From Candidatus Thermokryptus sp. (GTDB lineage Bacteria; Bacteroidota; Ignavibacteria; Kryptoniales; Kryptoniaceae): a DNA stretch of 21,644 nucleotides. Location of the stretch: assembly GCA_028276305.1 (NCBI GenBank), contig JAPYWO010000001.1, positions 1 to 21,644 on the forward strand, written 5' to 3'. The notes beneath the pieces were generated by a model. It did not search any database, was not told where the DNA came from, and worked only from the letters and a program-made list of their open reading frames with translations. This document shows, one piece after another, positions 14,355 through 21,644 of this stretch; within the stretch, counting starts at the first letter, position 1; each line of letters begins with the position of its first letter. The position numbers were made by a program, and so were the translations under genes.

Positions 14355-14385
14355 TTTGACTAATTCTTAAAAATTGTTAAATTTT
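14355..14385 (+). promoter_or_regulatory. candidate promoter for the degenerate signalling cluster
   Basis: TTTG (14355-14358), a 19-base spacer and TAAATTTT (14378-14385), one mismatch from TAnnTTTG. An overlapping sigma-70-like reading is also possible: TTGACT at 14356, 16 bases, TAAATT at 14378. Predicted transcription would begin about where the ATG of the kinase fragment lies (14392), so that message would be nearly leaderless, or the promoter may really serve the gene at 14609. Confidence 0.4.
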
Positions 14386-14391
14386 AAATGA

Positions 14392-14631
14392 ATGATGTGC
14401 TTTTCGTTCTTTACGACGAAGCCGACGATTTACACCCGCAGTGATACAAGTGAGCCAGTTGGCACCGGTATTGGACTTGCCACTGTGAGAAGATTGGCTG
14501 AGAAATATAATATCCAAATTGATGTAAAGACGAAAGTGGGCGAAGGAACGAGTTTTATACTTAAAATCCCGCTTGCAAAAGAGCAAACAAAAGTAGGAGG
14601 TAGTTATAATGATAAGGAAAATTTGGCGTGA
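14392..14631 (+). pseudogene. C-terminal ATPase-domain fragment of a histidine kinase
   Basis: 79 residues equal to the last third of a HATPase_c domain. FFTTKP (about 6-11) is the F-box and GTGIGLATVRRLAEKYN (from about 24) is the G2 box, both intact; the end KVGEGTSFILKIPL is the usual last strand. The N box, G1 box, dimerisation domain and sensor are missing. A stop codon (14389-14391) lies directly in frame upstream, and only about 100 bases separate it from kdsA, so the rest of the kinase is gone, not merely frameshifted nearby. It cannot bind ATP or phosphorylate alone. A relic is the simplest view. A promoter candidate ends just before its ATG, and the next gene starts inside it, so a small expressed protein or leader cannot be excluded. 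Confidence 0.6.
14595..14601 (+). promoter_or_regulatory. strong Shine-Dalgarno site for the gene at 14609
   Basis: AGGAGGT, seven bases before the ATG at 14609. It is one of only three clear sites in a window where most genes have none, and it fixes the start of this gene inside the 3' end of the kinase fragment. Confidence 0.7.
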
Positions 14632-15157
14632 GTTTGTTGATGATTTCGTCTTGAAACACCCCGCTCTTTTTTCTGCTTTGATAATTTATCTTTACTATCT
14701 TTTCACGACGCTTGATCTTTTCAGAAAACTCAGGGAAGGTATCGTGTCTTTTTCGGATATATTTACGCATTTTGATTCGCTTCTGTGGATATGGGGTTTG
14801 TCTTATCTTTTCGTGAAGCTTGTCAATTTGAAAGAGCAACAGCACCGCGAGGAAAAACTTCGGCTTGAACAGATCAAGCAATATGAAACGCAAATAGCTA
14901 AGTTGAAAATGGTCAAAGATTTTACTTTCTCCCTTAGGGATTTGATTTATAACCCGCTGACTATAATTTTGAGCGCATCTGCAAGGATTGAGAGGCGTTT
15001 CCCCTACGATAATGAAACGATAAGAGATATCAGAGCGATTGAGCAAGGTTGTAGGAGGATTGAGCGTCTTTTGATGGAGGTTAAAGAGTTTGAAGAAAAA
15101 CTTGTGATTGAAGAAGCAAAAGAGGAAACAAACGAAGTTAAAACAGAAAAAGCTTAA
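14609..15157 (+). CDS. membrane protein with a histidine-less kinase-dimerisation-like domain
   Basis: 182 residues. Two likely membrane helices (about 18-38 and 52-74) form a hairpin, followed by a charged coiled coil (about 72-103) and a helical pair resembling a HisKA/DHp domain: FTFSLRDLIYNPLTII lines up with the H-box SHELRTPLT. Asp111 falls where the phosphorylated His should be; N115, P116 and L117 match. A second helix (about 136-163, IRAIEQGCRRIERLL) follows, then an acidic, lysine-rich tail. There is no ATPase domain. The ATG start is set by a strong Shine-Dalgarno. Four bases separate it from the receiver gene, so the two proteins probably act together. Possible roles are docking or dimerising the receiver protein at the membrane; this is inference. 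Confidence 0.7.
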   Translation: MIRKIWREFVDDFVLKHPALFSALIIYLYYLFTTLDLFRKLREGIVSFSDIFTHFDSLLWIWGLSYLFVKLVNLKEQQHREEKLRLEQIKQYETQIAKLKMVKDFTFSLRDLIYNPLTIILSASARIERRFPYDNETIRDIRAIEQGCRRIERLLMEVKEFEEKLVIEEAKEETNEVKTEKA

Positions 15158-15161
15158 CCTT

Positions 15162-16226
15162 ATGACTATACTTGTGGTTGATGATGAAAAGGAGTTAAGG
15201 GAGACCCTTAAAAACGCACTTGAACTTGAAGGTTATGATGTCATATTGGCTGAAAATGGTCTTGTTGGGTTTACACTTGCTCAGGAAAAAAAGCCGGATT
15301 TGATTTTGCTTGATATAAGTATGCCTGTTATGGACGGCTTCACAACTTTATTTAAATTAAAACAGAACCCTTCAACAAAAGATATACCTGTGATAATCCT
15401 TACCGGTCAGTATGTTGATGAAGAAAACCTTGAACGCGGTTTTAACCTTGGCGCGGTTGAATATCTTTACAAACCGATAAAGTTGGCTGAATTGACCGCA
15501 CGTGTCAGGTCAGTTTTAAGGATGAAAATACTTGAACTTGAAGCGAAGAAAGCGCAAACGAGCACAGCGAAATTTTTTATAAACGAGATAAAGAGGATTT
15601 TTTCAACGCTTAAAGGAGTGATGGAAATTTTGATATTGAGCGAGGGGATAAGTGGTGAATTTAAAGCGAGCATTTCAGAAGACCTAAAGAAGTTGAAAAA
15701 GTGGTTTGAGGTCGTGGATTATTACACCATTATAAACGATATAGTTGCCGGCGTTGAAAAAATGGATATGAGAATTGTTGATTTGAGCACATTGTTGAAA
15801 AATTTAATTGAGGAAGTCAAGGGGAAATATGAAAGTGTGAAGTTTGAACTTAACCTGGCAAGGGAGGCGATAATTCAAGGGGATGATAACTTATTGAGGG
15901 CGGGATTTAAAATTTTCATTGATTCAATCTCGGAAGGGATGCCTTCGGGCGGAACAATATCAATAACTCAAACGATAAGATCTGGCAAGGATGGAAGATT
16001 TGTATTTGTCGTGGTTCGTGACGAGGCGCAGAAACTTCCGCTTGAGTTCGCAAAAATTTTGTTCAATCCATACGCACTTTCAAATTTTGAGTTCACACCT
16101 CCCTATAACCTTCTCGGTTTAAAAGTTTTCCAGATGTTGATTGAACTACACGGCGGTTTTGTCTTAGTTGAACCTTCAGAGCTGACATCGGGAAATAAGT
16201 TTATCATACAGGTTAGATCCGCTTGA
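15162..16226 (+). CDS. response regulator fused to a degenerate histidine-kinase-like half
   Basis: 354 residues from ATG 15162; the frame stays open back to 15108, but that extension is the tail of the previous gene in another frame. Residues 1-120 form a complete receiver: D7/D8, phospho-acceptor D51 (ILLDISMPVMDG), T81 and K104. Residues 136-185 look like a DHp helix pair in which N141 (FINEIKRIF) replaces the H-box His. Residues 205-354 follow a HATPase_c domain: GDDNLL then MPSGG for the N-box region, DEA at 287-289 in place of the G1 DxGxG, and LLGL near 317-320 for the G2 GxGxGL, then HGG. The N-box Asn appears as Ser255. ATP binding is therefore unlikely. The output may be protein interaction gated by receiver phosphorylation. 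The 3' end overlaps the convergent transporter gene by 14 bases. Confidence 0.78.
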   Translation: MTILVVDDEKELRETLKNALELEGYDVILAENGLVGFTLAQEKKPDLILLDISMPVMDGFTTLFKLKQNPSTKDIPVIILTGQYVDEENLERGFNLGAVEYLYKPIKLAELTARVRSVLRMKILELEAKKAQTSTAKFFINEIKRIFSTLKGVMEILILSEGISGEFKASISEDLKKLKKWFEVVDYYTIINDIVAGVEKMDMRIVDLSTLLKNLIEEVKGKYESVKFELNLAREAIIQGDDNLLRAGFKIFIDSISEGMPSGGTISITQTIRSGKDGRFVFVVVRDEAQKLPLEFAKILFNPYALSNFEFTPPYNLLGLKVFQMLIELHGGFVLVEPSELTSGNKFIIQVRSA

Positions 16227-20905: not shown

Positions 20906-21400
20906 TCAGCCGAACTTCACTTTGATAATTCTTTCAATTAACTCCTCTTTCGTTGCCTTTGAGATTTCGCGACCCGATAGACCTATTCCTTCAATTTTCC
21001 TTGCGATTGAGCGTAGTTTCATCACGGTTAAATTTTCAAGCTGGGAGCGAAGTTCTTCCGGTGATTGTGCCTCGGGAAGTTCAGCTGGGTCAACGGCGAT
21101 TTCACCACCGGAGATTTCGGATGGTTTTTCGGGATAAATGAGCATTTCAAGGTCATCAATCGGTCTTGGGATGACATGGACTGAGACGAGTTCGCCGACG
21201 CGTTGAGCTGCGGATGCCCCAGCGTCAACCGCTGCTTTTACTGCTGCCACCTCGCCGATTATTTTGATCGTCACATAACCTCCGCCTATATATTCTTTCC
21301 CGACGAGTTTAACATTAGCAGCTTTACAAGCTGCATCAGCAGCTTCAATTGCAGCTACAAGCCCTCTTGTCTCTATTAAGCCGAGTGCATATTCAATCAT
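20906..21400 (-). CDS. BMC-H shell protein with a C-terminal SAP/Rho_N-like domain
   Basis: 164 residues. Residues 1-85 are a canonical hexamer-forming BMC domain ([10 protein letters not shown], pore loop [26 protein letters not shown]). After an acidic, proline-containing linker (86-120) comes a helical domain (121-163) with [13 protein letters not shown] and [12 protein letters not shown], resembling the SAP or Rho N-terminal helix-extended-loop-helix fold. That fold usually binds nucleic acid, but it also occurs in protein contacts. Ordinary BMC-H proteins end near residue 95, so the extra 70 residues are real. It is 19 bases downstream of another BMC-H gene, and a paralogue of it. The ATG start has only a weak purine stretch upstream. 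Confidence 0.9.
21161..21211. repeat. 51-base direct repeat, copy in the second BMC-H gene
   Basis: Identical to 21468-21518, including synonymous positions. It encodes [17 protein letters not shown] on the minus strand. Sequence on both sides is similar but clearly diverged, which suggests gene conversion or strong DNA-level constraint. Confidence 0.85.
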
Positions 21401-21419
21401 AGTTTGAAACCCTTTTAAT

Positions 21420-21644
21420 TTACTTTCCCTCCGGTCGCTTCGGGAGAATTAGTTCAACATCGGCGTGCGGTCTTGGGATGACATGGACTGAGACGAGTTC
21501 GCCGACGCGTTGAGCTGCAGCTGCTCCGGCGTCAACTGCTGCTTTTACTGCTCCGACATCACCGCGGACCATTACGGTTACATATCCACCCCCAATTACT
21601 TCTTTCCCGATGAGCGTAACTTTTGCAGCTTTGCACATCGCATC
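21420..21644 (-). CDS. BMC-H shell protein, N-terminus beyond the window
   Basis: 75 codons of a standard BMC-H shell protein, open to the window edge with family sequence ([15 protein letters not shown]), so the apparent internal start at 21638 is false. The pore loop is VIGGGYVTV and the hexamer-edge motif VHVIPRP is followed by a short basic tail ending in PKRPEGK, as in canonical shell proteins without extensions. BMC-H hexamers tile the facets of bacterial microcompartments. It is a close paralogue of the next gene, which begins 19 bases downstream. The compartment's enzymes must lie upstream, outside the window. Confidence 0.92.
21468..21518. repeat. 51-base direct repeat, copy in the first BMC-H gene
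   Basis: Partner of 21161-21211, offset 307 bases, identical at all 51 positions. See that entry. Confidence 0.85.

Follow-up and report, generated by a model that had tools for sequence, protein, structure and literature searches.

A conserved pair of a histidine-less membrane DHp-like protein and a receiver fused to a dead histidine-kinase module in a hot-spring bacterium

To our knowledge, pseudo-histidine kinases such as DivL and RocA have been described as single cases. The separate roles of residues at and after a phospho-acceptor histidine are illustrated by CrdS, whose H371A variant still dephosphorylates its partner (phosphate half-life of 2.6 min, versus 53.5 min without CrdS) and whose N375A variant, altered at position His+4, fails to do so (47.6 min); only the kinase reaction requires E372, at His+1, according to the excerpt cited (PMC3510030). 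DivL, a pseudokinase credited with neither kinase nor phosphatase activity in the passages cited, binds DivK~P (PMC4211667). PhyT, a membrane-anchored degenerate kinase, keeps unphosphorylated PhyR at the membrane, and the corresponding excerpt reports that no phosphatase activity on PhyR was seen (PMC5898713). Together, DivL and PhyT caution that a DHp fold is no proof of a phosphatase. RocA, a membrane pseudokinase, co-precipitates with the histidine kinase CovS (PMC7028121, in the part cited).

We analysed a cluster of three genes from a hot-spring bacterium in which parts of such kinases lie side by side. The window is a whole contig of 21,644 nucleotides (G000:C127) from an assembly of 1.91 Mb in 390 contigs with a completeness of 71.55%. 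We take its relatives to be Kryptonia, genome G006 to be Candidatus Thermokryptus mobilis and genome G002 to be Candidatus Chrysopegis kryptomonas JGI-23. The features of the cluster are the following.

14356..14383, forward strand: weak promoter-like site, 9 of 12 matches, with TG
14392..14631, forward strand: gene A, 3' stump of a membrane PAS histidine kinase, comprising the F box, G2 box and tail only
14609..15157, forward strand: gene B, stand-alone membrane DHp-like protein, 182 aa
14666..14722, forward strand: hydrophobic segment 1 of B, about residues 20-38, mean hydropathy 1.71, within model helix 18-43
14759..14830, forward strand: hydrophobic segment 2 of B, about residues 51-74, mean hydropathy 1.28 from residue 51, at the start of model helix 48-130
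14897..15118, forward strand: predicted DHp-like helical hairpin of B, residues 97-170
14939..14941, forward strand: codon GAT for Asp111 of B, the phospho-acceptor His position in the alignment of genus members
14951..14953, forward strand: codon AAC for Asn115 of B, position His+4 in the family alignment
15162..16226, forward strand: gene C, receiver fused to a dead histidine-kinase module, 354 aa (Pfam and structure model)
15312..15314, forward strand: codon GAT for the phosphorylatable Asp51 of the C receiver, present in 19 of 19 rows
15525..16223, forward strand: DHp/CA-like pseudokinase half of C, residues 122-354, with Asn141 at the His position

The start of C was placed at ATG 15162, as in relatives, and a longer TTG reading frame from 15108 was not adopted; four bases thus separate the stop of B from this ATG, the spacing given in an earlier note made from the DNA alone. 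The same note had seen a promoter candidate before the cluster, a claim that did not hold up: five promoter-like sites were found against a mean of 5.6 in shuffled sequence, no better than chance. The stretch upstream of the cluster is alignable with G006. At the other end, a convergent major facilitator superfamily (MFS) gene overlaps C by 14 bases (window 16213-16226), and at 20906-21644 lie two tandem genes whose products by eye resemble shell proteins of bacterial microcompartments, the first gene being truncated by the end of the contig.

Gene A, 79 codons long, matches only positions 62-110 of the 111 in HATPase_c (Pfam search, E 2.6e-8) and carries an F box and the motif GTGIGL, confirming the lone end of an ATPase domain described earlier. 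At the same place G006 has a 603-aa membrane PAS histidine kinase, its H box recognised on inspection, with B and C after it; the G002 orthologue, of 571 aa, stands in the same gene order, and database copies of this kinase are annotated (precomputed) with PAS, HisKA and HATPase domains. An intact kinase at the same place in relatives, which the earlier note had set against its own reading, was thus found for A alone. Window and G006 are collinear, with flanks 93.5 and 94.4% identical and a single junction between 14390 and 14406, where 1,570 G006 bases, all within kinase A, face 15 unmatched window bases. The stump is 90.7% identical to G006, compared with 96.2% for B and 96.6% for C, as expected under relaxed selection, and its dN/dS is 0.35, computed from few changes (8.5 nonsynonymous, 6.5 synonymous). 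Upstream of B and C, gene A is intact in two of seven genus genomes, a stump in the window and absent in four; no kinase A orthologue was found in G001, G003, G004 or G005, and no other one in the 71.55% complete assembly G000, each genus genome having 12 to 24 matches to kinase A.

Gene A is therefore a deletion remnant, or else an artefact of a single assembly. Under the second possibility the truncation would have arisen in assembly or amplification and the organism would have an intact kinase. The deletion is indeed seen in just one assembly, a fragmented and incomplete one, and genomes of single cells amplified by MDA, of which the window's assembly may be one, are common for the Kryptonia group according to the excerpt cited (PMC4737851). 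None of six protein clusters checked came near 91% identity to the G006 kinase, in a database clustered at 90% in which an allele of the window's own species could be hidden. The collinear flanks meeting at one junction with 15 unmatched bases, the lower identity of the stump than of its neighbours, and the lack of a further copy in G000 speak against an artefact, which we regard as possible but doubtful.

B and C have fared differently from A. The earlier note proposed looking for the same gene pair with the same substitutions in related genomes, and for frameshifts or stops. B and C adjoin in all seven genus genomes examined, with open frames and differing flanking genes; in one locus (L104) the C reading frame overlaps B too far for the neighbour script, and adjacency was established by eye. 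B and C are flanked by kdsA and the MFS gene in the window and in G006, and a permease-like gene lies upstream of B in the other five genomes (in G002, beyond kinase A). Downstream of C the genes vary across the genus, and a search by eye for a constant gene beside C in the genus loci found none. In G001 and G003 (L102:8938-15390 and L103:1258-7719), C is followed by a PorU-like gene of 1348-1350 aa and then a PorV-like gene, assigned by eye to type IX secretion. Across the genus, B is 81-96% identical to the window's B among its seven members, and C 58-97% identical to the window's C. B dN/dS is 0.023-0.050 in the 10 of 21 genus pairs with finite dS, in the same range as kdsA (0.037, one pair). 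For C, dN/dS is 0.092-0.139 in 15 of 21 pairs; divided by half in three pairs, it is 0.02-0.06 for the receiver and 0.12-0.14 for the pseudokinase half. Synonymous divergence between the window and G006 is 0.14-0.47, depending on the gene.

These data bear on the first of two readings offered earlier, that the whole cluster is a two-component system in decay. The truncation of A with its elevated dN/dS, and the complete absence of A from four of seven genomes, fit such decay, but B and C remain open and under purifying selection in all seven genomes, and B with the same aspartate recurs in six further families of the class. On conservation and dN/dS we reject decay for B and C, and as an account of the whole cluster we consider it very improbable; it survives for gene A. 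The second reading, a functional receiver and pseudokinase pair, is borne out by the retention in all seven genomes of the same pair with the same aspartate, by purifying selection, and by the occurrence of the Asp form in those other families. No single event underlies the impression that every kinase part is broken: A is a truncated copy, and the states of B and C are old and conserved. Taken as a whole, the earlier reading is partly supported.

As the earlier note described, B is a membrane protein with Asp where the phospho-acceptor His belongs. It has two hydrophobic segments, and the Asp is residue 111, in the motif RDLIYNPL. Both this aspartate and Asn115 are invariant in the seven genus members. 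The window's B matched no Pfam family, HisKA included. Its structure model has a helical hairpin at the place of a DHp domain, at a middling pLDDT of 72.7; Foldseek gave no match to this model better than E 0.99, and in a second structural comparison Z was similar for DHp domains and for helical hairpins of unrelated proteins. The phospho-acceptor His that marks HisKA domains and the Spo0B/ChpT/PhyT phosphotransferases is replaced in B by Asp111.

Distant relatives of B were found by alignment search. A narrower first search matched 14 of 296 genomes, the window's included, and a wider one 322 of 391 class genomes at E 0.001. Just 78 of these reach a best E of 1e-20 or lower, so most of the 322 were set aside as DHp domains of ordinary kinases; the next best value after the 78 is 4.2e-12. 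One of the 78, G271, is a fused kinase, in which the membrane half of B is joined to a DHp-CA kinase (L160:4576-5568, G271:C33). Matches had to start by model position 20 and reach position 150 or beyond, rows duplicating another's first 150 residues were dropped, and strong-hit places left unfetched are absent from the set, which comprises 97 locus rows from 74 genomes and 10 database proteins (P0010-P0019). In these 107 members the His column holds His in 56, Asp in 47, Glu in three and Gln in one; Pro at His+5 is universal (107/107), and Asn at His+4 is present in 103, including all 47 Asp forms. An acid at His+1 occurs in none of the 47 Asp forms, compared with 21 of the 56 His forms. HisKA (PF00512) is matched at E 0.01 or better by 26 of 32 family members. 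By alignment, B is thus an Asp-type member of a class-wide family predicted to have two membrane helices and a lone DHp-like hairpin, and the 56 His forms could qualify as histidine phosphotransferases of the Spo0B/ChpT/PhyT kind.

The Asp form is found in seven families in all, six besides the window's. In the rows collected, families f1, f6, f20 and f58 have Asp forms only, f13 has Asp, Glu and Gln forms, f4 has 34 His and one Asp, and f17 has 21 His and five Asp; G021, G152, G464, G520 and G538 each have both a His and an Asp copy. Second copies in f13 (L141, L142 and L211; two Glu, one Gln) carry Lys at His+4. When a tree was built without the His column, a single branch separated all 56 His forms from the rest (SH-aLRT 96), and the same split was recovered when the two neighbouring columns were also removed (SH-aLRT 97), in an unrooted tree of a quick kind that gave long-branch warnings. 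On this unrooted tree the genus takes an intermediate place, with the His forms to one side and the remaining Asp forms to the other, a position with which an independent origin of Asp within the genus would also be compatible. The spread of Asp over families of the class means that it is either older than the genus or of multiple origins, and either way not fresh decay.

The residue pattern of the Asp forms, with Asn kept at His+4 and the acid gone from His+1, corresponds to the phosphatase-competent, kinase-dead pattern of the CrdS dissection (PMC3510030, in the part cited), an analogy that suggests a phosphatase role for B. A role attributed to the catalytic His of HK853, which is held to assist dephosphorylation in the passage cited (PMC7005713), counts against a phosphatase lacking this residue. 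A passive B is the alternative: like DivL or PhyT, it would serve as a dock or sensor that binds the C receiver in one phosphorylation state and removes no phosphate. The precedents of DivL bound to DivK~P and of PhyT holding PhyR at the membrane, together with Asp in place of His in all seven genus members, lend this some credit, but retention of the His+4 Asn in 47 of 47 Asp forms with loss of the His+1 acid points to a reaction that has been kept, and we judge a purely passive B rather unlikely, if credible.

Receivers are enriched beside B. At the 79 B loci outside the genus, REC domains are encoded by 25 of 142 immediate neighbours of B and by 7 of 187 genes at least three places off (Fisher p 2.6e-5), in a test that used mechanically called reading frames on either strand, skipped those below 100 aa and drew on related, hence non-independent, genomes. 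Counted by genus, REC lies beside the His form in 7 of 20 cases, the Asp form in 6 of 13 and the Glu or Gln form in none of three. A receiver is the nearest same-strand neighbour within 300 bases at 19 of 79 B loci outside the genus; it is not at the other 60, 14 of which have no same-strand neighbour within that distance. These receiver neighbours include lone receivers (L191, L201, L202 and L250), C-like REC-CA proteins, and hybrid kinases (L219, L237 and L242) that are unlike C. About 30 His-type loci (for example L145, L146, L150 and L159) have a tadA-like deaminase gene immediately downstream, a prfA-like gene and another conserved gene being convergent; gene names were assigned by eye. 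In one genus, a His-type B adjoins a REC-DHp-CA protein (L158:3848-6904, L217:1913-3616 and L229:1795-4732) in which Asn replaces His and the N and G1 boxes survive, along with part of G2. The complementary losses of these pairs, as in a split kinase, make them candidates worth following as a lead.

The receiver of C matches PF00072 at E 3e-28, its HATPase_c match is weak (E 0.0012, 19.7 bits against a Pfam cut-off of 26.4), and Pfam HisKA did not match the window's C, so that the DHp part is seen by model and alignment only. We compared 19 rows of C, comprising the seven genus genomes and 12 of 16 orthologue-level clusters, some of which may be near-copies, with 20 outside homologues hand-picked among full-length matches. 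The receiver has its profile and key residues: Asp7, Asp8, Asp51 and Lys104 are present in all 19 rows and Thr81 in 18, with Arg in G002. The kinase half is dead by the residues that working histidine kinases need. The acceptor His is lost in 19 of 19 rows (Asn in nine, Gly in three, Asp in three, Ser in two and Arg in two), as is the N-box Asn; two G1 glycines are replaced throughout by Ala, Val or Thr and by Lys, Tyr and Leu replace the first two glycines of G2 in all 19, and the third is kept in two. The outside homologues retain His in 19 of 20, the N-box Asn and G1 glycines in all 20 and the first G2 glycine in 19. The earlier description of an intact receiver fused to a half without the His and the ATP-binding motifs is accurate for the N, G1 and G2 boxes, and needs amending in that all 19 rows retain the G1 Asp and the F-box Phe. 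A dead module with fixed letters of its own is what would be expected of a kept binding role. The genus also has a second family of receiver-pseudokinases (L114:639-1736, G000:C182, and L113:5816-6871), in which Gln takes the place of the His and the N, G1 and G2 boxes are degenerate; these paralogues were kept out of both residue groups.

The structure model of C (pLDDT 90) finds LvrB as its best Foldseek match (E 4.7e-20), at a TM score of about 0.38 and an rmsd of 21, so that the domains are alike and their arrangement is not shown; the REC-DHp-CA order of the LvrB kind is borne out by model, Foldseek and Pfam, for the DHp part by model and alignment. Further Foldseek matches include, among others, ZraS, DivL and the pseudokinase-like region of RetS. 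A second structural comparison placed lone receivers on top, with no match to the dead module among the best 50 entries, and so says very little about that half. Autophosphorylation triggered by phosphorylation of REC, as in LvrB, is not expected of C, because the catalytic residues are absent.

The explanation that we prefer, and to which we give an even chance, is that B and C form a working signalling pair without a kinase of its own. B has no phosphorylatable His, yet it retains Asn at His+4 and, as modelled, the hairpin on which receivers dock; it would most likely dock the C receiver at the membrane and either strip phosphate from Asp51 or hold C until it is phosphorylated. Phosphorylation of Asp51 would in turn alter the conformation or dimer of the dead module, which would act as a protein-binding output. 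The phosphate for C would come from another kinase, ancestrally perhaps from gene A, the upstream PAS histidine kinase, in an operon A-B-C that in the window is now without A. Since A is gone in the window's assembly, another kinase would have to serve C there, and phosphorylation of C by such a kinase is plausible. What we observe is the conservation, the selection, the domain order, the residue states, the enrichment of receivers beside B and the deletion in one assembly; docking, phosphatase activity, the output and the kinase are inferred from these. Against the pair as we picture it stand the precedents of DivL and PhyT, the role held for the His of HK853, the f13 copies with Lys at His+4, the many B loci without a receiver, the hybrid kinases among the receiver neighbours, the weak model of B, and the TM score of about 0.38 to LvrB.

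The dead parts might instead act on live kinases, with B, C or both tuning active histidine kinases in the manner of RocA and CovS. Co-precipitation of that pair, the similarity of C to the pseudokinase-like region of RetS, the 12 to 24 matches to kinase A per genus genome and the hybrid kinases among B neighbours elsewhere would suit such a role, but B and C have no adjoining kinase gene in four of seven genomes and lone receivers, too, adjoin B elsewhere; on balance we think it improbable.

Extending the kinase-free pair to the whole B family leads to a more tentative proposal, which we would call a possibility rather than a probability: that B and its relatives form a new class of stand-alone DHp proteins, anchored in the membrane and serving receivers, in which His forms with His-less REC-CA partners would be split kinases (L158, L217 and L229) and Asp forms in seven families would be kinase-free receiver docks or phosphatases. 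In the genus the partner has also lost its ATPase, and the pair would be made only of dead kinase parts. In the Asp forms the residue for dephosphorylation has been kept and that for the kinase has gone, going by the assignments excerpted from PMC3510030. The His-to-Asp switch extends across seven bacterial families of one class and is not a single case. The family is therefore a natural test set for a DHp domain surviving as a receiver phosphatase or dock without a kinase, and C offers a case in which to study receiver output by way of a dead kinase module. For the pair itself, docking or dephosphorylation is suggested as the mode of signalling, in place of phosphorylation.

We read the pair as a variant of known pseudokinase signalling, and our searches of the open-licence PMC literature turned up no published description of the B family. 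HisKA (PF00512) and the B family have in common the NPL motif, the His+4 Asn and, going by the middling model of B, a DHp-like hairpin, and differ in that the window's B has no Pfam match and is missing the His. For the remaining systems the comparison follows the excerpts cited. RocA of group A Streptococcus resembles B as a membrane pseudokinase whose His is dispensable, but it has retained a CA-like domain and its target is a kinase, CovS, whereas B adjoins a receiver protein (PMC7028121). PhyT/PhyP of Sphingomonas is a membrane-anchored, kinase-inactive DHp protein that binds a response regulator, as proposed for B; PhyT is a phosphate relay that still has its His and a degenerate ATPase domain, whereas B has neither His nor ATPase domain (PMC5898713). 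LvrB, a Rec-controlled histidine kinase of Leptospira (8vc9), has the REC-DHp-CA order and size of C, and its REC receives phosphate from an upstream kinase, LvrA, as we propose that C did from A; a functional His161 and a catalytic CA domain set LvrB apart from C, which lacks both (PMC13269768). DivL of Caulobacter has PAS and CA domains and a Tyr where B has two membrane helices, no CA domain and an Asp, and its DHp domain, like the DHp-like hairpin of B, is without the acceptor His and has been repurposed as a receptor for a receiver (PMC4211667).
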